DNA from: Cryobacterium flavum
GTDB taxonomy: Bacteria > Actinomycetota > Actinomycetes > Actinomycetales > Microbacteriaceae
DNA length: 64,000 bases
NCBI RefSeq assembly: GCF_900103805.1
Contig: NZ_FNIB01000006.1
Location: 1-64,000 of the forward strand
Direction: 5' to 3'
Part shown: piece after piece, positions 3,848-46,335 of the stretch
Layout of the letters: every line of letters starts with the position of its first letter
How positions within the stretch are numbered: position 1 is the stretch's first letter
Notes under the pieces: model-generated
Seen by the model: the letters and a program-made list of their open reading frames with translations, nothing else
The model's database searches: none
What the model was told of the DNA's origin: nothing
Made by a program: the position numbers and the translations under genes

Positions 3848-4849
3848 TTAGATCGGAACCTGAACCTGCTGCAGCACTCCGCGCAGAATCGCATCGACCG
3901 AGACGCCTTCGAGTTCGGCTTCGGGGCGCAGCTGCACACGGTGCCGCCAGACCGGCAGCGCCATGGCCTGCACGTGGTCGGGGGTGATCGAGTCGTAGCC
4001 GCTCAGCCAGGCCCACGCCTTGGTAGCGGCGAGCAGGGCGGTCGTGCCGCGAGGGCTGACCCCGAGCTTGACCGAGGGGCTCGTGCGGGTGGCGCGGGCC
4101 AGGTCCACGATGTAGGCGAGCACATCGGCGCTCGACCCGACCCGAGCGACGGCATCCTGCGCCGCGGCGAGTTCGGCCGCGCCGAGAACCGCGCTCACAC
4201 CGGCACCGGCCAGATCGCGCGGATTGAAGCCGGCCGCGTGGCGGCGCAGCACCTCGATCTCATCGACCCGCTGAGGCACTTCGAGCACGAGCTTGAGCAG
4301 AAACCGGTCGAGCTGTGCCTCGGGCAGCGTATAAGTGCCCTCGTATTCGATCGGGTTCATGGTCGCCGCCACGATGAACGGCTCTGGCAGCTTCAGCGAC
4401 TCGCCGTCGACGCTGACCTGACGCTCCTCCATCGCCTCGAGCAGCGCGGACTGCGTCTTCGGCGGCGTGCGGTTGATCTCGTCGGCGAGGCAGATGTTCG
4501 TGAATACCGGCCCCTGCCGAAACTCGAATTCGCCGGCCTTGGCGTCGTAAATGAGCGACCCGGTCACGTCGCCGGGCATCAGGTCGGGCGTGAACTGGAT
4601 TCGTTTGGTGTCGAGACTGAGTGCGTGGCTGAGGGTGCGCACGAGCAGGGTTTTCGCTACGCCCGGCACGCCCTCGAGCAGCACGTGGCCGCGCGCGAGC
4701 AGCGCGATGATCAGCCCGGTAACCGCGCCGTCCTGCCCGACGACGGCCTTGCCGACCTCGGTGCGCACCCGGTTGAGGGCGGCCCGCAGCGCGGCGGCAT
4801 CCGCTGCGTTGGTCGGCGCGGTGTCGATCTGATCAGTGGGAGTCGTCAT
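3848..4849 (-). CDS. moxR: MoxR family AAA+ ATPase
   Basis: MoxR ATPases act as chaperone-like remodellers of VWA-domain proteins. The 333-residue protein has Walker A GVPGVAKT near residue 61, Walker B with LADEINRTPPKTQSALLEAME near 125, sensor 1 ATMNP, and arginine-finger region PEAQLDRF. The length is normal. The ATG overlaps the stop of the upstream DUF4350 gene by 4 nt (ATGA), and the DUF58 gene follows after 2 nt. The pairing with DUF58 is the usual MoxR arrangement. The substrate in the envelope is unknown. Confidence 0.95.
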   Translation of the reverse strand: MTTPTDQIDTAPTNAADAAALRAALNRVRTEVGKAVVGQDGAVTGLIIALLARGHVLLEGVPGVAKTLLVRTLSHALSLDTKRIQFTPDLMPGDVTGSLIYDAKAGEFEFRQGPVFTNICLADEINRTPPKTQSALLEAMEERQVSVDGESLKLPEPFIVAATMNPIEYEGTYTLPEAQLDRFLLKLVLEVPQRVDEIEVLRRHAAGFNPRDLAGAGVSAVLGAAELAAAQDAVARVGSSADVLAYIVDLARATRTSPSVKLGVSPRGTTALLAATKAWAWLSGYDSITPDHVQAMALPVWRHRVQLRPEAELEGVSVDAILRGVLQQVQVPI

Positions 4850-37382: not shown

Positions 37383-38615
37383 GTGCGAATTCACGACGAG
37401 ACCGGTAGCGGTCAGCGACCCCGGCGGCATCCCCTCGCCGCACTGTGGTCGGCCTTCGCTCTCGTGCACCTGCTGCTGATTCTTCTGGCCGTGTTCGGGC
37501 CGGGGTATCCGCTCGGTGACGTCGAGGTGGTCTACCGCGGCTGGGCCGAGAACGCGGCCGCCGGCAGCATCGTGGGAATCACCGAAAACTTCGTCTACCC
37601 GCTGCTCGCCCTCCTGCCGATCTTCGCCGCGTTCGCGTTCGGCGGCCCGGCCTACCTCGCCACCTGGTTCGCGCTGGTGACGGCGCTGAACGCGGGGGCG
37701 TTTGTCGTGCTCGTGCGCGAACACCGCAGCGCGGCCTGGTGGTGGCTGCTCTTTCTGGCGCTGCTCGGCCCCATCGCGCTCGTGCGCATCGACGCGATCA
37801 CGGTGCCCCTCGTCATCGTGGCCCTGCTCTGGCTGCGCCGGCGCCCGTTCTGGGGCACGGCCCTGCTCACGATCGCGACCTGGATCAAGATCTGGCCGGT
37901 CGCCGTGCTCGCCGCCCTGTTCGTGGCGTCGAAACAACGCTGGCGGATGCTCGGGGTCGCCGCCGCCGTCACCGCGGCGGTCGTGGCCGTGGCCGCGGCG
38001 CTCAGCCTTGCCCGCGGCAGCGGAATTCACGTGCTGAGTTTCGTGGCGGAGCAGGCCGGCCGGGGGATCCAGATCGAATCGCCCGTCGCCGTGCCCTGGC
38101 TCTGGCAGGCCGCGCTCGGCGTGCCGGGCAGTTTCGTCTACTACGACCATCAGATTCTTACCTTTCAGGTCGCCGGCACCGGCACCACCGTCCTGAGCGT
38201 TCTGATGACCCCGCTGCTGGCGGCCGCTGCCGCTGCCGTGCTGCTCCTCGGCGTACGCGCCCAACGCATGGGCGCTGGATGGCTCGCGATGCTGCCGCCG
38301 CTGACGCTCGCGCTGACGGTGACCCTGATCGCGTTCAACAAGGTGGGGTCGCCGCAGTTCATCAGCTGGCTGGCCGCACCGATCATTCTGGGACTCGCGC
38401 AGAGCGGCCGGGCCTGGCGTACACCGGCGCTGCTCGGGCTCGCGCTCGCCGCCCTCACCCAGGTCGTCTACCCCTACCTGTATGACTGGCTGCTCGTGGC
38501 CAACCCGCTTATGGTGCTCGTGTTGACCCTGCGCAACCTGCTCGAGTTCGTGCTGCTCGGCTGGGCGATCGGGGCGCTCTACCGGCCGAGGCCCGCGCGA
38601 ATCCGGCCTGGCTAA
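37383..38615 (+). CDS. GT87-type multi-pass membrane glycosyltransferase
   Basis: The 410-residue protein has about ten hydrophobic spans and the features of the DUF2029/GT87 family of polyprenyl-phosphate-mannose dependent mannosyltransferases: an extracytoplasmic acidic site early (GDVEVVYRGWAE, D near residue 47), VRIDAITVPLV, and ATWIKIWPVAVLAAL near residue 165. Members build lipomannan-type glycolipids in mycobacteria; the acceptor here is unknown. It starts with GTG at 37383 and stands alone; the 234-nt gap before it has no gene. Confidence 0.85.
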   Translation: MRIHDETGSGQRPRRHPLAALWSAFALVHLLLILLAVFGPGYPLGDVEVVYRGWAENAAAGSIVGITENFVYPLLALLPIFAAFAFGGPAYLATWFALVTALNAGAFVVLVREHRSAAWWWLLFLALLGPIALVRIDAITVPLVIVALLWLRRRPFWGTALLTIATWIKIWPVAVLAALFVASKQRWRMLGVAAAVTAAVVAVAAALSLARGSGIHVLSFVAEQAGRGIQIESPVAVPWLWQAALGVPGSFVYYDHQILTFQVAGTGTTVLSVLMTPLLAAAAAAVLLLGVRAQRMGAGWLAMLPPLTLALTVTLIAFNKVGSPQFISWLAAPIILGLAQSGRAWRTPALLGLALAALTQVVYPYLYDWLLVANPLMVLVLTLRNLLEFVLLGWAIGALYRPRPARIRPG

Positions 38616-38665
38616 CCACCCCGACTCCAGGTGCACCCCTCGAAGCCGGATCAGGCGTCGATCAG

Positions 38666-38749
38666 GCGAGGAGCCTCATAGACCTCTGACGAGACGCTCG
38701 TATACTCGTTGTTGGATTCCACGGTCGTGGTGGCTTGCGGGGCTGCTGA
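38666..38749 (+). pseudogene. Fragment of a universal stress protein gene
   Basis: This stretch is a degenerate copy of the 3' part of the usp gene at 42560-43060. 38689-38717 matches 42910-42938 at 28 of 29 bases. In frame it reads ARSLID-L, stop, RDARILVVGFHGRGGLRG, then a stop at 38747; the intact gene reads AKSLIAVSRDARILVVGSRGRGGLTG. Two stop codons and the lack of the rest of the gene show it is dead. It lies 59 nt upstream of the P-type ATPase start and shows that a usp copy once preceded the ATPase. Confidence 0.85.
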
Positions 38750-38808
38750 TCTCAATGGCGCACCCGCAGTGCTGCTATCGACCTCCACCGGTATTCAGGA
38801 GCATTCTT

Positions 38809-41643
38809 GTGAGTTCTCGATCCCGCCCGTCACCGGCCGTTGGTGTCAGTGCTGAGCCCGCAGTGAAGCCCGTGGCGTGGCATACCCTCTCTGCCACGGT
38901 CGTCGCCACGATGTTGGACGTTGATCCCGGTGCCGGTCTGCAGGACGGCTCGGTTGAGGCGCGACAGGAAGAGTACGCACCCAATGTCCTGGCCGAGCCC
39001 AGAAGGGTACCGGCCTGGCGCAAAATCATCCGTTTATTGGCGGAGAAAATGACGCTCGTGCTGGTGATCGCCGCGGTGGTGAGCGCCGTCGTCTCACGCG
39101 AATGGGAGACGCCTGTCGTTATCCTCGCGGTGATCATCCTGAACACGGCATTGAATTATCTGCAGGAACGACGGGCCGAAAACAGCCTCCAGGCGTTGCG
39201 AACTATGTCTGCGGGAACGGCGGTGGTTCGCCGTAACGGCACCGAGCTGGAGGTTCCTCGGTCCGCACTGGTGCCCGGAGATATTGTTCTGCTCGATGCC
39301 GGGGACTCCATTCCGGCCGACGGCCGCATCGTTGAAGAATCGCGGTTGCAGGTGGCCGAGGCCACACTGACCGGAGAATCCGAACCCGTCGGCAAGACGA
39401 CGCGTGCCCTCACGGTTGCGAGCCTGCCGCCTGGCGACCGCGACAACATGGTCTTCATGAACACCGAGGTCACCCGTGGCCGGGCCACCATGGTCGTCAC
39501 CGCTACCGGTATGCGCACAGAGGTCGGTGCAATTGCGGCTTTGCTCAGCGAGGTGAAGGGCGAACGTACCCCCCTCCAAAAGAGGATCGACCAGTTGGCA
39601 CAGATGCTGACCGTGGTGGCCCTGCTCGTGGTATCCGTTGTCTTTGTGCTGGGTCTCATCCGTGGGCAGTCGTGGTCCGACCTGCTGATCACCGCGGTGT
39701 CGCTGGCCGTGGCGACAATTCCAGAGGGACTCACGGCGGTCGTCGCCTTCACTCTGGCGATGGGAGCCGCTCGGCTAGCGGGCCGTGGGGCCATTCTCAA
39801 GCAGCTCTCGGCGGTGGAAACCCTGGGCAGCGTCACCCATATCGCCACGGACAAGACCGGCACGCTGACCATGAACGAGATGACGGCACACCGCCTACAC
39901 ATTCACGGACACGATTTTCTGGTTACCGGCGAGGGCTATGCGACGGACGGAAAAATTTTGACCCCGGAGGACCTGCCGGTGCCCGACCTGACCGAGGCGT
40001 TACTGGCGATGGCGCTGTGCAACGATGCCGTCATCCGTGACGGCAGGCTGGTGGGAGATCCGACGGAAGGTGCGTTGCTCGTGTTGGCCGAAAAGGGCGG
40101 TCTCGATGTTGAAGCAGCCCGGCAAGCTCACCCGCGCGTGGCGGAGGTCCCGTTCGATTCTGAGTACAAATACATGGCCACCTTCCACCGGCTGGCGTCG
40201 ACAACGCCCAACTCGAACCCGTCCGCGCCGCTGACCGTCGACCAGTGTCTGGCAAAGGGGGCCCCGGTCGCGCTGATGCAGCTGGCCGATTCGGTACTCA
40301 CCGCGCAAGGAATCCGGCCGATCACCGAGGAACATCGCCGACGGATCCACGCTGCCGTCCAGAAACTGGCCGGGGAGGGCCTGCGCACACTCATGATCGC
40401 CGGGCGGCGGCTTGACGCCGTTCTCCCAGACGACGAGAAATCGTTGCAAGCCATGGTCACCGGTTTGACGATCTACGCAATCGTGGGAATTGTCGATCCT
40501 GCCCGTGCCGAGGCTGCCGAGGCCATCGCCGTGGCGCGGAGAGCTGGCATCCAAGTCCACATGATCACGGGTGATCACCTGATCACGGCTTCGGCCATCG
40601 CCAAGAATTTGGGCATTCCCGGCGACGCCGCGTCCGGTCCGGACCTGGACAAACTGGACGACGGCGAGCTTGGCCGACGTGCTGCCGGTTACGGCGTGTT
40701 GGCGCGGGTCACCCCGGCACACAAGATTCGAATGGTCAAGGCTCTGCAGCAGGGGGGCAATATCGTGGCGATGACCGGGGACGGTGTCAACGATGCCCCG
40801 GCCCTGAAGCAGGCCGACATCGGTATCGCAATGGGCATCACCGGGACGGATGTGTCCAAAGGCGCAGCAAATATGATCCTCACCGATGACAACTTCGCCA
40901 CCATCGTGGCGGCGGTCAGAGAAGGCCGCGGCATCTATGCCAACATCCTGAAGTTCGTGAGATTCCAGCTCACCACAGCGTGGGGGTTCGTGCTCATCTT
41001 TTTGATCGCGGGCGTCACCGGGCTGGCCGGCGGTGCGCCGTTCACCGCCCTGCAGATCCTCTGGGTCAATATCATCATGGACGGCCCGCCCGCGCTCGCC
41101 CTCGGCGTGGATGCGGCGGAGCCGGGCACGATGCTGGAACAGCCTCGCCCGGCCAATGAACGGCTGCTGACCCGAGGTCGGCTCGTCCGAATCCTCGGGT
41201 TGGGGATTGTCATGGCCGCTGGCACCATCGCCGTCCTGACCCTTGCGCCGGTCGTGTTCCCGGACAGGGCCGATGATGCGGCATTCGCCGGCACCCTGGC
41301 GTTTACCACGTTCGTGTTTTACCAGGTGTTCAATCTGCTTAACGTGCGTTCGGACACGCACTCCGTATTCTCGATCCAGACCTTGACGAACCGGAGCATC
41401 TGGGTCGCCCTGGCGGCCGTGATCATCCTGCAGATCTGTGTGGTGCAGCTCCAGGTTCTGCAGGGGCTCTTCGACACCACAGAACTCACTGCATCCCACT
41501 GGGGCCTGGCCGTGCTGGTGGGGTCTTCCGCGCTCTGGGTCGAGGAAATCGGTAAGTTCCTGGTGCGGTCGCGGGTCCGCCATCGGCGCGGCCCGGCCCC
41601 GAGTAGCAGTGCGCGCAATCCCAGCTCAGACCATCACATCTAA
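38809..41643 (+). CDS. P2-type cation-transporting ATPase (CtpF-like)
   Basis: The 944-residue ATPase has all P-type motifs: TLTGES (actuator) near residue 185, DKTGTLT with the phospho-Asp near 348, a nucleotide domain, TGDGVNDAPALKQADIGIAMG near 655, and about ten membrane spans. M4 has ATIPEGLTA (the P2A glutamate) and M6 WVNIIMDGPPALALG, which keep the site-II Asn and Asp of calcium pumps, so Ca2+ or Mn2+ is the likely ion. Mycobacterial CtpF is the nearest named relative. The GTG at 38809 has AGGAG 7 nt upstream. The thiamine-binding gene follows after 9 nt. Confidence 0.92.
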   Translation: MSSRSRPSPAVGVSAEPAVKPVAWHTLSATVVATMLDVDPGAGLQDGSVEARQEEYAPNVLAEPRRVPAWRKIIRLLAEKMTLVLVIAAVVSAVVSREWETPVVILAVIILNTALNYLQERRAENSLQALRTMSAGTAVVRRNGTELEVPRSALVPGDIVLLDAGDSIPADGRIVEESRLQVAEATLTGESEPVGKTTRALTVASLPPGDRDNMVFMNTEVTRGRATMVVTATGMRTEVGAIAALLSEVKGERTPLQKRIDQLAQMLTVVALLVVSVVFVLGLIRGQSWSDLLITAVSLAVATIPEGLTAVVAFTLAMGAARLAGRGAILKQLSAVETLGSVTHIATDKTGTLTMNEMTAHRLHIHGHDFLVTGEGYATDGKILTPEDLPVPDLTEALLAMALCNDAVIRDGRLVGDPTEGALLVLAEKGGLDVEAARQAHPRVAEVPFDSEYKYMATFHRLASTTPNSNPSAPLTVDQCLAKGAPVALMQLADSVLTAQGIRPITEEHRRRIHAAVQKLAGEGLRTLMIAGRRLDAVLPDDEKSLQAMVTGLTIYAIVGIVDPARAEAAEAIAVARRAGIQVHMITGDHLITASAIAKNLGIPGDAASGPDLDKLDDGELGRRAAGYGVLARVTPAHKIRMVKALQQGGNIVAMTGDGVNDAPALKQADIGIAMGITGTDVSKGAANMILTDDNFATIVAAVREGRGIYANILKFVRFQLTTAWGFVLIFLIAGVTGLAGGAPFTALQILWVNIIMDGPPALALGVDAAEPGTMLEQPRPANERLLTRGRLVRILGLGIVMAAGTIAVLTLAPVVFPDRADDAAFAGTLAFTTFVFYQVFNLLNVRSDTHSVFSIQTLTNRSIWVALAAVIILQICVVQLQVLQGLFDTTELTASHWGLAVLVGSSALWVEEIGKFLVRSRVRHRRGPAPSSSARNPSSDHHI

Positions 41644-41652
41644 GGAGTCACA

Positions 41653-41967
41653 ATGCTTGTAGCTTTTTCCGTCGCACCGTCCGTCGCCGCCGACTCGCAG
41701 GGGTCGGTGCACGACGCGGTCGCCGCCGCCGTGCGCATCGTGCGCGACTCCGGGCTGCCCAACCACACCGATTCCATGTTCACCACCATCGAGGGCGACT
41801 GGGACGAAGTCTTTGCCGTGATCAAGGCGGCGACCGAGGCAGTGGGAGCCTTCGGGCCGCGCGTTTCCCTCGTGCTGAAGGCCGACATCCGCCCAGGTCA
41901 CACGGGCGAGTTGACCGGCAAGCTCCAGCGACTCGAGAGTGCGTTAGGGCAAGGGAAATCCGACTGA
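41653..41967 (+). CDS. Thiamine-binding protein, MTH1187/YqgV family
   Basis: The 104-residue protein matches the small MTH1187/YkoF-like thiamine-binding family: MLVAFSVAPSV at the start, VRIVRDSGLPNHTDSMFTTIEGDWDEVFAVIK in the middle, and VSLVLKADIRPGHTGEL near the end. It forms a ferredoxin-like fold that usually assembles as a tetramer. AAGGAG precedes the ATG at the correct spacing. It is 9 nt behind the ATPase and cotranscribed with it; no thiamine enzyme is nearby, so its job with the pump is unclear. Confidence 0.88.
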   Translation: MLVAFSVAPSVAADSQGSVHDAVAAAVRIVRDSGLPNHTDSMFTTIEGDWDEVFAVIKAATEAVGAFGPRVSLVLKADIRPGHTGELTGKLQRLESALGQGKSD

Positions 41968-42005
41968 GCGAACCGCCACACGGGCTTCACGTCCTGATTG
42001 GGCGG

Positions 42006-42365
42006 TTAGCTTGTCCGTTCGGAGTCGGGCGGATCATCGGCAGTCAGTGAGCCGGCGTGGGCGCGTATGGTCGGGTTCAGACGAACCTTGATCAGGCTGG
42101 CGATTGTGGTCACCGTCAAGACGACAGCGATGACGACAAGGCTCAGGTTGGTGCTGATCTCCGGCACGCGGTCGTCGATACCGTGTCCCCAGTGCAGAAC
42201 GAGTTTCACGCCGATGAAAGCGAGGATGAGCGCCAGACCGGTGGAGAGGTACACCAACCGGTCCAGGAGTCCCTTGACGAGAAAGAAAAGCGCACGCAGC
42301 CCGAGCAAGGCGAAGGCGTTGGCGGTGAAGACGATGTACGGTTCCTCGGTGATACCGAAGATCGC
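42006..42365 (-). pseudogene. 5'-truncated TerC family membrane protein gene
   Basis: Only the C-terminal 115 or so residues of a TerC/Alx protein remain: AIFGITEEPYIVFTANAFALLGLR, then LVYLSTGLALILAFIGVKLV and GHGIDDRVPEIST with three spans. An intact TerC has about 200 more residues with the acidic metal-binding spans before this point. Homology starts abruptly at about 42365; the frame upstream (to 42749) encodes an unrelated Cys/Arg-rich sequence with no likely start. It is a broken gene, opposite in strand to the flanking thiamine-binding and usp genes. Confidence 0.85.
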
Positions 42366-42559
42366 CTGTCGTCGTGAGCGAGTGCATCCGGGGTTCTTCC
42401 ACCAAGGATAGACACATGAAGCATAATTCGGTAATCTGAGAGCGTATTTTAGAACTGTTATTTCACAGGATTTGCCCCTAGCAAGGCCAACTGGGTGCCA
42501 CCCATCGGCCTGCGGGCCGGCATCGCTGTCACCCCCGTTACCGATAAGGAGAACTACCA

Positions 42560-43060
42560 ATGAGCGTTGACGGCGCGATCGACACCGTTGAACTGGTGCC
42601 AGCCCCGAGCAATAGCATCGTGGTCGGACACGATGGCTCAGACTGTGCCGATTACGCACTAGCCATGGCCCTTGAACTCGCCGACCAGTTGCACGTTCCC
42701 GTTGTTGTTGTGCGGGCGTGGTCCATCGCGACAGCTCCGCGGCCATCAAGTTGGGAGTTCGGATATGTCTCTTCGTTCGAGGAGTACCTCTCAGCGGTCC
42801 ACGATGAACTGGTGCGGGACGCGCGGACCAGCGTCGAGAATCATCTCGCGGTCGTGGTGAGTTACCGGGCGGTTCATGCCAGCCCTGCGAAGAGCCTCAT
42901 TGCCGTCTCACGAGACGCTCGTATTCTCGTTGTTGGATCTCGCGGTCGTGGCGGCCTCACGGGGATGCTGCTCGGTTCCGTGAGTGAGCAGTGCGTGCGG
43001 CACGCGACATGCCCCGTCCTGGTCGTGCGGCAGCGGGGACGCAAGGTGGAACACGAGTGA
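42560..43060 (+). CDS. Universal stress protein (UspA family)
   Basis: The 166-residue protein has the USP fold: NSIVVGHDGSDCADYALAMAL at the start with the D for ATP, and the ATP-binding pattern GSRGRGGLTGMLLGSVSEQ (G-x2-G-x9-G-S) near residue 130, so it belongs to the ATP-binding class. AAGGAG precedes the ATG at 42560. Its last 150 nt are overlapped on the other strand by the run-off end of the truncated sbtA frame. A dead fragment of a close copy lies at 38666. In mycobacteria such proteins work in hypoxia and dormancy. Confidence 0.93.
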   Translation: MSVDGAIDTVELVPAPSNSIVVGHDGSDCADYALAMALELADQLHVPVVVVRAWSIATAPRPSSWEFGYVSSFEEYLSAVHDELVRDARTSVENHLAVVVSYRAVHASPAKSLIAVSRDARILVVGSRGRGGLTGMLLGSVSEQCVRHATCPVLVVRQRGRKVEHE

Positions 43061-43699
43061 ACGTGACCGACACCAGATTTTAATCAAGCCCATCTCCAGC
43101 AGAAAAAGAGCGAGAATTCCCTTGAATAGATCCACGATCAGCGCTTCGATGGACGACAACCCGTCCGGGCCAGCTACCCCGCCGATGAGGAGTCCGGCCA
43201 GGAGCAGCACGATGCCTTTCCTCAGAAACACTTCATGGGCGATCGACTTCCACCGCGTCTTGCGCGAGATGCCTCGCGCAAGAACAATTCCCACCAGAAT
43301 TGCGGGCACTTCCAGCAAGACCAGAAGCAGCGGCATGTGTTCTTCGAACGAGATCTGCTGGCTGCCGAGGTAGGCGACGGCCACGGCGTAGGTGCCCACG
43401 CTCACGGATCCGTAATGGGCGGCGATAGAGGCCGCATCCGCTCGCTTGAACCGGCCCAGATAGCGCAGCACGGGGAACGCGAGCAGGGTGAGGCCAAAAC
43501 CCATGGTCACCACGGCCAGCATCTGCGGCAACAGGTTGGCGAAGGGCTGCTTAGCGAGTTCCACGCCGTCTTTGAGGCCAATGGCCAGCAACAGCACGAT
43601 GCTCACAAACTCGTACATCGCCGCCGGAAGACGCAACTCTGAACGCAGAAGACCGGCCACTGCTCCGAGCAGAAAGAAAAGAATGATGGGATCGATCAC
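42908..43699 (-). pseudogene. 3'-truncated SbtA-type sodium/bicarbonate transporter gene
   Basis: Residues 1-206 match the SbtA family (MIDPIILFFLLGAVAGLLRSEL, AAHYGSVSVGTYAVAVAYL, then SSIEALIVDLFKGILALFLLEMGLI), giving the first six or so spans. At about 43082 homology stops; the last 57 residues (KIWCRSRS and onward) are the antisense of the usp gene. A complete SbtA needs about 110 more residues with the second membrane half, including the second Na+ and bicarbonate site. The frame is open but the transporter is surely broken. The start region is normal. Confidence 0.85.
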
Positions 43700-43839
43700 A
43701 TTGTGGCTCTCTGATTTACTCTGCTCGAAGTTCGAAGAAGCGGCGCGACTCCATGGTGACCAACCCCGTCAATGCACGCTGAGCAAAACGTGCTAACACT
43801 AGCGTGTATTGCGGAGCGTGTGTCGTCTATGATCAGACG

Positions 43840-44118
43840 ATGGCCGCCTGGACCTTTCTTACTAATCACGCACACGTGCTGCTCTGCGTTTCTCAAGACC
43901 CCGGGATGCGATTGCGCGATATCGCAGTAGAAGTGGGAATCACCGAACGCGCCGCCCAACGCATCATCGCCGAACTCGTCGCAGATGGCTATCTCACGCG
44001 TCACCGCGACGGACGGCGCAACAGCTATCAGCTCTACCCCGAGCTTCCTCTTCGGCATCCCCTGGAACGACACCACAAAATTGGTGAGCTTCTTGGAGCG
44101 CTTGGATTGGATCCATAG
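43840..44118 (+). CDS. Small winged-helix transcriptional regulator
   Basis: The 92-residue protein is a single winged helix-turn-helix of MarR/ArsR-like type: WTFLTNHAHVLLCVSQDP, LRDIAVEVGITERAAQRIIAELVADGYLTRHRDGRRNSYQL, then PLRHPLERHHKIGELLGAL. It has no metal cysteines and no ligand domain. The ATG at 43840 sits at the last base of an inverted repeat, TCGTCT-N6-AGACGA (43823-43840), suggesting self-regulation. It is divergent from sbtA and likely governed the island's transport genes. Confidence 0.85.
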   Translation: MAAWTFLTNHAHVLLCVSQDPGMRLRDIAVEVGITERAAQRIIAELVADGYLTRHRDGRRNSYQLYPELPLRHPLERHHKIGELLGALGLDP

Positions 44119-44324
44119 ATCGTGAGTAGCCACCGCAGTCGACCCTGCCAGTCGCCGTTGCCCGCATCGCTGCACTCGTGAGTTCACCGACCGAAGCTAC
44201 GCCGACCCACTAATTTGCGATAACTCAAATGGTGACGCTGCTCACACCGCGACACGCTGGTCGCGCAGATGATGTGCGGCGGGCAGACGGGCCACGAGAG
44301 CGCCATGGGGCTTAGGCTTGACGC

Positions 44325-45678: not shown

Positions 45679-46335
45679 TCAGTCGGTCTGCAGCAGGATG
45701 CCGTCGTGGATGGCACGCTTGCGCAGCGCGACCTTGGTTCCCACGTCGTATCCGGCGAGGCGGTACTTTTCGCGAATGCGTTTGAGGTAGCTCTTGGCGG
45801 TCTCCTCGGAGATGCCGAGCTGGTAGGCGACGGCCTTGACCGGCTCGCCGGCACCGTAGAGCGCCATGACCCGGCGTTCCTGGGCGCTGAGGCGGGGACC
45901 TTCGACGTTCTCGGTGGAGTTGAGCGCGTAGTCGAGCTCGGCCGAGATGTACGACTTGCCATTGTAGGCGGCGCGAATGGCGTCGACGATCATGCTGGCT
46001 TCCTCGCTCTTCACGAGGTAGCCGAGCGCGCCTGCCGCGAGGGCTTCGCGCACCAGTGCCGGTTCGGAATAGGTGCTCATGAGTACCGTCTTCACACCGG
46101 TCGTCTTGAGTGTGGAGATCTTCAGCGACACCGGAATGTTGTCCTTGAGATCGAGGTCGAGCAGCACGACATCCACCGGAAACTCGGGATGCGTCAGCAG
46201 CTCGGGCCAGGTGGTCACCGCCGCTACCATCTCGATGTCATCAGCGGCGCTGCGGATCCACTCGGTGAGGGCACCCAGGAGCATCCTGTGGTCATCGACC
46301 AGGGCTAAACGGATGGGACGGTCTGTTGTCGTCAT
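45679..46335 (-). CDS. NarL/FixJ-type response regulator
   Basis: The 218-residue regulator has a receiver domain with acidic pocket D14/D15, phosphoacceptor D60 (VVLLDLDL), T/S near 87 and K109 (YLVKSEE), and a LuxR-type helix-turn-helix (150-215: LSAQERRVMALYGAGEPVKAV, EETAKSYLKRIREKY). It is the last of three same-strand genes: kinase, kinase-like membrane protein, regulator. The gap to the membrane gene is 45 nt. Targets are unknown. Confidence 0.93.
   Translation of the reverse strand: MTTTDRPIRLALVDDHRMLLGALTEWIRSAADDIEMVAAVTTWPELLTHPEFPVDVVLLDLDLKDNIPVSLKISTLKTTGVKTVLMSTYSEPALVREALAAGALGYLVKSEEASMIVDAIRAAYNGKSYISAELDYALNSTENVEGPRLSAQERRVMALYGAGEPVKAVAYQLGISEETAKSYLKRIREKYRLAGYDVGTKVALRKRAIHDGILLQTD

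Follow-up and report, generated by a model that had tools for sequence, protein, structure and literature searches.

The DNA analyzed here is a stretch of 64,000 nucleotides of the cold-loving bacterium Cryobacterium flavum (contig NZ_FNIB01000006.1, positions 1 to 64,000), referred to as the window. It belongs to a draft genome of 4.04 Mb in 42 contigs (G000), in which the window lies on contig C18. Between a GT87 gene and an MFS gene it carries an island of intact and broken genes (Table 1). A preliminary description had recognized four intact genes, coding for a P2-type ATPase, a thiamine-binding protein (thiBP), a universal stress protein (usp) and a small winged-helix protein (wHTH), as well as three broken ones, a usp scrap, terC and sbtA. 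All of them were confirmed, the intact genes by Pfam typing, the broken ones by comparison with C. gelidum (G013) and C. ruanii (G026), whose terC and sbtA are intact at this site. From the sequence comparisons described below we conclude that the island probably contains the remnant of a mobile carbon cassette which lost its pump by two deletions, and that the surviving wHTH is probably an inorganic-carbon regulator which would act on a palindrome.

Table 1. Features of the island in the window.
Feature	Position	Strand	Basis or remark
Relic between GT87 gene and ATPase	38586..38808	+	thiBP piece ~38595-38637, then usp piece 38666-38751; island order and orientation
P2-type cation ATPase, 944 amino acids from GTG 38809	38809..41643	+	Pfam E1-E2_ATPase, Cation_ATPase_N/C; separate insertion
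Thiamine-binding protein (thiBP, PF01910), backbone gene	41653..41967	+	Pfam
terC/alx remnant, 3' third, stop-free	42006..42365	-	TerC profile positions 120-177 of 178 only
Universal stress protein (usp), 166 amino acids, intact	42560..43060	+	PF00582
sbtA remnant, residues 1-207 of 314	43081..43699	-	Sbt_1 (PF05982) profile 1-208 of 308
Candidate operator, 26-bp palindrome, type AATACRYGNNANNNNTNNCRYGTATT	43785..43810	.	between sbtA and wHTH
Possible -10 element TATGAT, 6 nt 5' of ATG 43840	43828..43833	+	by eye
Small MarR-like winged-helix regulator (wHTH), 92 amino acids, intact	43840..44118	+	Pfam, fold model

The island genes were typed with Pfam profiles and TerC was tested with TIGR03718. 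Two gene starts were corrected. The ATG at 38755 falls within the usp scrap, and the start of the ATPase gene common to the relatives is the GTG at 38809. For wHTH the ATG at 43840 is a better start than the GTG at 43804, since genes other than the sbt-linked ones match the longer reading from about residue 10-14 onwards. The intact usp scored 102.5 bits over profile positions 4-141 of 141 and shows by eye a C-terminal G-x2-G-x9-G, which we take to be a nucleotide-binding motif. Of full-length TerC/Alx only the C-terminal end was matched in the window, while the C. ruanii copy reached 355 bits at a cut-off of 246. Likewise, the profile of the full-length SbtA with its ten helices (5+5) ended prematurely in the window (Table 1) and was covered from 1 to 307 of 308 in the C. 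ruanii gene. An SbtA-SbtB pair was not found, as no sbtB adjoins the sbtA remnant in the window. The island is lower in GC content than its flanks, with 57-62% over 42000-44250 and 62-66% over the ATPase and thiBP genes versus mostly 63-74% beyond (60% near 46200).

C. gelidum and C. ruanii carry an intact module between thiBP and the MFS gene, which consists of terC (350-351 amino acids), usp (166 amino acids), sbtB, sbtA (314 amino acids) and wHTH. Thus, a complete version of the locus, as anticipated by the preliminary description, does exist at the same site in relatives. The sbtB gene of these species, which the preliminary description could not recognize from the window, encodes a PII-like protein (PF00543) and is located directly downstream of sbtA. 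Judged from the comparison with both species, two deletions affected the module in the window: about 655 bp are missing at 42365/42366, comprising the 5' part of terC, and about 720 bp at 43081, comprising the 3' third of sbtA and the whole of sbtB. At each junction about two bases are common to both flanks (by eye). Because of these deletions we infer that SbtA, SbtB and TerC are dead in the window genome. In the comparison set of 57 Cryobacterium species genomes, of which a subset was read for gene context, sbtA was present in 10, in 8 of them full-length and free of stops, and sbtB in 9, one of them (G054) with a fragment. The truncations of the window were seen in its own genome alone among the 10 sbtA carriers of the genus. 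In G054 (locus L037, ~3865-4715) sbtA and sbtB are broken in another way, by an internal stop and with only pieces remaining, which represents an independent decay of the same cassette.

The terC and sbtA remnants contain no internal stops. Substitutions were compared by a simple Nei-Gojobori count, which dealt with small numbers. The sbtA remnant showed 10.5 non-synonymous and 13 synonymous changes on the window branch versus 7 and 42 on the remaining two branches combined (p 0.015). For usp, wHTH and the ATPase no sign of relaxed constraint was seen on the window branch, which fits the earlier suggestion that pump, usp and regulator are kept under selection. The terC remnant was too short to tell.

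The ATPase and thiBP genes show distributions of their own. GT87 and thiBP are adjacent without an ATPase in 16 of 16 further loci read, and five species (G014, G053, G006, G028, G019) possess the order GT87-ATPase-thiBP-MFS without an insert between thiBP and MFS. Consequently, the view of an acquired bicarbonate module reduced by deletions holds for the module itself, which is intact in relatives and low in GC content, but not for the pump and thiBP as its members. A mobile inorganic-carbon cassette of terC, usp, sbtB, sbtA and wHTH would have entered the junction between thiBP and MFS, and the stretch 41,968-44,120 would be what remains of it. Identity to C. gelidum amounts to 89.8% (usp) to 97.5% (terC remnant) for the segments of 38586-44118 versus 82.5-87.6% in the flanks, a contrast that was also followed in a 250-bp profile. 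Therefore, the island moved between species. Correspondingly, dS to C. gelidum is 0.10 for the ATPase, 0.19 for thiBP, 0.055 for the terC remnant, 0.15 for both sbtA and wHTH and 0.29 for usp, and in the backbone 0.44 for GT87, 0.40 for MFS and 0.53 for LuxR. The ATPase is 96% identical to that of C. gelidum and 83-86% identical to those of six other species at the same site. Since usp is nearer to C. ruanii (dS 0.17) than to C. gelidum, the block has a mosaic character. A tree based on five backbone genes does not group the three carriers (G000, C. gelidum and C. ruanii) in a single clade: C. ruanii is found in a starred group with G014 and G019, which have only the ATPase, and G050, which lacks it; C. 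gelidum stands with G045 (not starred), and G000 takes no settled place.

The closest named loci are those of Cryobacterium ruanii, C. gelidum, C. levicorallinum and C. glaciale. A search with the island DNA also retrieved two conjugative plasmids of Arthrobacter sp. U41 with related modules, one containing terC, wHTH, usp, a P-II gene and sbtA, the other lacking terC. In both modules wHTH sits away from sbtA. SbtA proteins with 75-77% identity to the Cryobacterium protein were observed in a Desulfuromonadales metagenome-assembled genome (L070) and in Proteobacteria bacterium 005FR1 (L071), which points to transfer between phyla.

For a draft assembly of 42 contigs it has to be considered that both deletions are assembly errors and that the genome retains intact terC, sbtB and sbtA. 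No long direct repeats were found at either breakpoint, which makes the collapse of a repeat unlikely. Moreover, neither a second sbtA nor an sbtB match was found in the window genome, and the sbtA remnant shows an excess of non-synonymous change. Assembly errors are thus a highly improbable explanation. It may also be argued that pump, thiBP, usp, terC, sbtA and regulator were gained as one stress-and-ion unit which is now decaying, since the island is contiguous, of lower GC content, arranged on alternating strands and contains broken genes. The high-identity block in common with C. gelidum does run from the pump to wHTH, and a joint later transfer of this block between the two genomes is possible. 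However, the GT87-thiBP loci without the pump and the five species with GT87-pump-thiBP but no terC/usp/sbt module form a nested pattern of presence that argues against a single first acquisition. We therefore regard gain as one unit as improbable. The theme of stress in the preliminary description was not sustained either, because the partners of the regulator elsewhere are inorganic-carbon uptake genes and TerC, not usp.

The proposal of a carbon regulator is based on a 26-bp palindrome common to the sbtA-wHTH and dabB-wHTH gaps, where it occurs in the same register. It is located just 5' of the TATGAT-ATG start of wHTH and 86-111 bp upstream of the sbtA start. The window genome possesses a wHTH paralogue (66% identical) that is divergent from dabB-dabA (contig C18, ~178,300; dabB site at 178325-178350), and its sites at sbtA-wHTH and dabB are alike in 16 of 26 bases in register. 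In this DAB locus (C18 ~174400-178700) DabA and DabB are adjacent and intact, with DabA covering profile positions 1-747 of 747 in a frame of 860 amino acids next to a Proton_antipo_M open reading frame of 484 amino acids. Two matrices were trained on sites of which identical ones were counted once, resulting in 7 dab sites (G039 left out) and 10 sbt sites. Since these sites were positioned by eye with both alignments already known, the cross-matrix tests are only partly blind. With the sbtA-derived matrix the in-register site was the best one in 14 of 16 dab gaps, 13 times at p 0.003, the smallest attainable value, and in G003 at 0.023. In the dab gap of the window genome this matrix picked the same palindrome on the other strand, and it failed in G039, where the contig begins at the site. 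Conversely, the dab-derived matrix detected the site in all 10 sbtA gaps of Cryobacterium (p 0.001-0.015).

Loci not used in motif training were then scored; many of their gene starts are approximate (tblastn), and in four loci usp starts were counted as module genes. In 26 of the 38 held-out loci the best site preceded a module gene by at most 300 bp, compared to a uniform expectation of 2.7. Mirror-symmetric permuted matrices achieved this in 8.0 loci on average and in 22 at most, and 0 of 500 reached 26. Well-placed sites were found in 9 of 20 loci of the order, 7 of 8 sbtA loci from outside the genus and 10 of 10 plasmid loci. Of the 11 DabA-side loci with wHTH, 10 had their best site no more than 400 bp in front of DabB, TerC or wHTH (permuted mean 2.9, maximum 9, 0 of 500). 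Locus L161, which was counted as the miss, contains a perfect 26-bp palindrome of the same type at 687-712, located just after the wHTH match and before most of the DabB match. A site model applied to the 57 genomes (E <= 1) yielded 32 rows corresponding to 16 places, all of them at sbtA/wHTH or dabB/wHTH. Fifteen are training places, and the one in G032 has the same letters as the training site of G025.

The wHTH protein scored 28.9 with the Pfam profile MarR_2 (cut-off 27) and 28.1 with HTH_24 (cut-off 21.9), which places it in the MarR superfamily. Its structure model (pLDDT 82, pTM 0.74) is a winged helix with one short extra C-terminal helix and no separate effector domain. The best Foldseek matches were MarR proteins (3k0l and 3tgn, AdcR) with about 19% identity; the sequence search of solved structures gave weak matches only, and phage records searched with wHTH gave none. 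The family signature reads WTFLTNHAHVLL...VGITERAAQ...GRRN.Y...PLRHP. Common to 16 aligned members (L069 was left out) are, among others, W4 T5 F6, H10, H12, G58 R59 R60 and R72 H73; His10, His12 and His73 are invariant and His79 is nearly so. A consensus promoter scan yielded no candidate. The TATGAT was seen by eye in the sequence and the alignment, and would possibly give rise to a leaderless wHTH mRNA.

Matches to wHTH were obtained in 21 of 297 genomes of the order, including G000 and C. gelidum. TerC was nearby in 9 of the 20 other order-level loci read, and in G222 TerC, wHTH and a 45%-identical SbtA occur together. No usp was found near wHTH in these 20 loci. As a general partner of the regulator usp was rejected outside the Cryobacterium and Arthrobacter modules, no usp lying near a wHTH place among the matches listed; on plasmids it accompanies wHTH in the two U41 modules and is about 2.8 kb away on one Rhodococcus plasmid. 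The plasmid search with wHTH produced 42 matching records, and we chose 10 contexts for reading from the 30 listed. They contain a carbon pump or carbonic anhydrase in 4 cases, TerC in 6 and either in 9, the Deinococcus plasmid having neither. The U41 plasmids, which did not come from this search, add two contexts with SbtA, one of them with TerC. On a Mycolicibacterium plasmid, a DUF6671 gene is flanked by DabB, DabA, a P-II gene and carbonic anhydrase to one side and by CBS, TerC and wHTH to the other. DUF6671 proteins were encountered repeatedly in the vicinity of wHTH and of SbtA or DabA (L112, L113, L123, L128, L130, L136, L138, L160), and no paper naming DUF6671 was found in the literature searched. 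DabA was present in 31 of 394 genomes of the class. Outside G000, wHTH accompanied it in 11 of 30 stretches, several of which end at contig ends, and was directly divergent from DabB in 6; the same divergent arrangement is seen in L051.

The signature together with the palindrome upstream of carbon-uptake genes was thus found for the window wHTH and its dab paralogue and, with exceptions, in the wider set. The same switch and site beside CO2/bicarbonate uptake genes in other actinobacteria suggest a regulator of such uptake not yet described. The literature searched, which covered few subscription papers, yielded no actinobacterial regulator of sbt or dab genes. With evenly balanced confidence we propose that the 92-amino-acid wHTH may represent an undescribed family of inorganic-carbon (or linked pH) repressors with a palindrome of the type AATACACGAAAnnnnTTTCGTGTATT, which would control SbtAB, DabBA, carbonic anhydrase and TerC across the actinobacteria and travel with them on plasmids. 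The window would then hold a regulator orphaned by deletion of its pump.

Several observations weigh against this interpretation. The dab-derived matrix gave p values of 0.133, 0.070, 0.034 and 0.002 in four Nesterenkonia gaps. Among the 20 order-level wHTH loci, 11 are without a well-placed site and 11 without any reference gene, with unrelated genes among their neighbours; about half of the family members at this level lack both such a neighbour and the site. Of 17 dab loci whose stretch contains no wHTH, 6 also had the site in front of DabB or DabA (from 19 loci, L159 and L164 were left out; the DabA start was used where DabA comes first, and that of L146 was guessed). AT-rich upstream regions account for part of the motif signal, as reflected by the permuted mean of 8 of 38. 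At E <= 1 two places used for its training, in G023 and G038, escaped the site model; with nearly all its places taken from training and with its stricter filters, it shows an absence of false places and is no test for new targets. The non-synonymous excess of the sbtA remnant is weakened because thiBP, which is not known to decay, also has such an excess on the window branch (p 0.043). SbtA (10 of 57) and DabA (16 of 57, G000 included) occur together in 2 genomes of the genus with 2.8 expected. Mutual exclusion of the two pumps, no stronger than chance, was accordingly rejected, and the idea that DabBA made SbtAB dispensable is only plausible. Finally, the putative targets of the site are the sbt genes and wHTH, and usp is no more than a possible one.

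Another explanation for these patterns is that wHTH senses a metal (Mn or Zn) or pH on behalf of TerC/Alx and that its adjacency to sbt and dab genes results from cassette shuffling. TerC is indeed found beside wHTH in 9 of 20 order-level loci and 6 of 10 plasmid contexts, the conserved histidines could bind metal, and AdcR, a zinc-dependent MarR repressor, is among the fold matches. On the other hand, in seven Cryobacterium loci (L050-L053, L058, L060, L061) the paralogue linked to dabBA has no TerC match in its vicinity, and the site stands in register in both the sbtA and the dabB gaps. On balance, a sensor dedicated to TerC appears rather unlikely, and control of inorganic-carbon uptake is preferred here.

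As an inorganic-carbon regulator, a wHTH dimer would sit on the palindrome and repress the sbt genes and its own gene until inorganic carbon becomes short or the pH changes. SbtA would import bicarbonate with sodium and, following the cyanobacterial precedent, could be blocked by SbtB. In the window genome DabBA remains and could continue carbon uptake, so the loss of sbtAB may have been tolerated. The regulator that survives may at present work at the dab site or control no more than its own gene, and may still bind both sites. If this proposal is correct, a small protein together with a palindrome that precedes two unrelated carbon pumps as well as carbonic anhydrase and TerC would constitute a simple carbon or pH switch, and TerC and DUF6671 would be grouped with inorganic-carbon physiology. 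The window would represent a natural knockout, with one pump deleted, the switch kept and a second pump present.

The scrap 5' of the ATPase contains more than usp, since a thiBP piece precedes the usp piece (Table 1). The relic of about 200 bp is present in G000 and C. gelidum and absent in C. ruanii, G014, G053, G006 and G019, in which the GT87 gene leads straight into the ATPase. In C. ruanii the GT87 stop seems to overlap the ATPase start (ATGA, by eye); in the window the relic parts both genes (38560-38820). In Mycobacterium tuberculosis, Rv1996-ctpF is a usp gene beside a P2 ATPase, and the preliminary description had likened usp and pump of the island to this pair. A trio of wHTH, usp and ATPase in one orientation was observed in seven other Cryobacterium loci, L042-L048 (G012, G020, G010, G007, G009, G027, G029), and a usp-ATPase pair also in L049. 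It is this trio that truly parallels Rv1996-ctpF in Cryobacterium. The scrap of the window, in contrast, is closer to the usp genes of the island (79-83% over 82-87 nt, 86% over 69 nt) than to those of the trio (<=72%) and follows a thiBP piece. A usp-ATPase pair was therefore rejected as its source, and the likeness to Rv1996-ctpF is confined to a usp sequence next to a P2 ATPase. From the sequence we infer that the relic is the worn seam of a tandem duplication.

The intact cassette resembles the cyanobacterial SbtA-SbtB system. According to a report on Synechocystis Slr1512/Slr1513 (PMC8352866), SbtA is a symporter that takes up bicarbonate together with sodium, an import which SbtB is able to block. 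The intact relatives have a full-length SbtA profile and a P-II-family sbtB directly downstream; the only solved-structure match for SbtA is 7cye. Differences are the actinobacterial origin and an SbtB whose end lacks the CGPxGC motif (by eye) and whose closest solved structure is TTHA0516 (2cz4), followed by SbtB entries; in the window sbtA is broken and sbtB is gone. The DAB/DAC pump DabA-DabB, homologues of which occur in heterotrophs as stated in PMC13144422, is accompanied in G000 and other genomes of the genus, in the gaps read, by a wHTH paralogue and a palindrome similar to that of the window. Its transporter is unrelated to the cassette of the window, and only the regulator and the site type are common to both. 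That cells which do not fix CO2 still need bicarbonate for carboxylation is stated for E. coli in PMC4275256. MarR-family repressors are similar to wHTH in their profiles, which score above cut-off, and in the predicted fold; with its helix-wing core, short C-terminal helix and own signature of WTFLTNHAHVLL and RHP, the protein of the window differs from them. CmpR and CcmR/NdhR, the cyanobacterial inorganic-carbon regulators, are LysR-type proteins and unrelated to the small wHTH, but would share with it the role of switching carbon-uptake genes.

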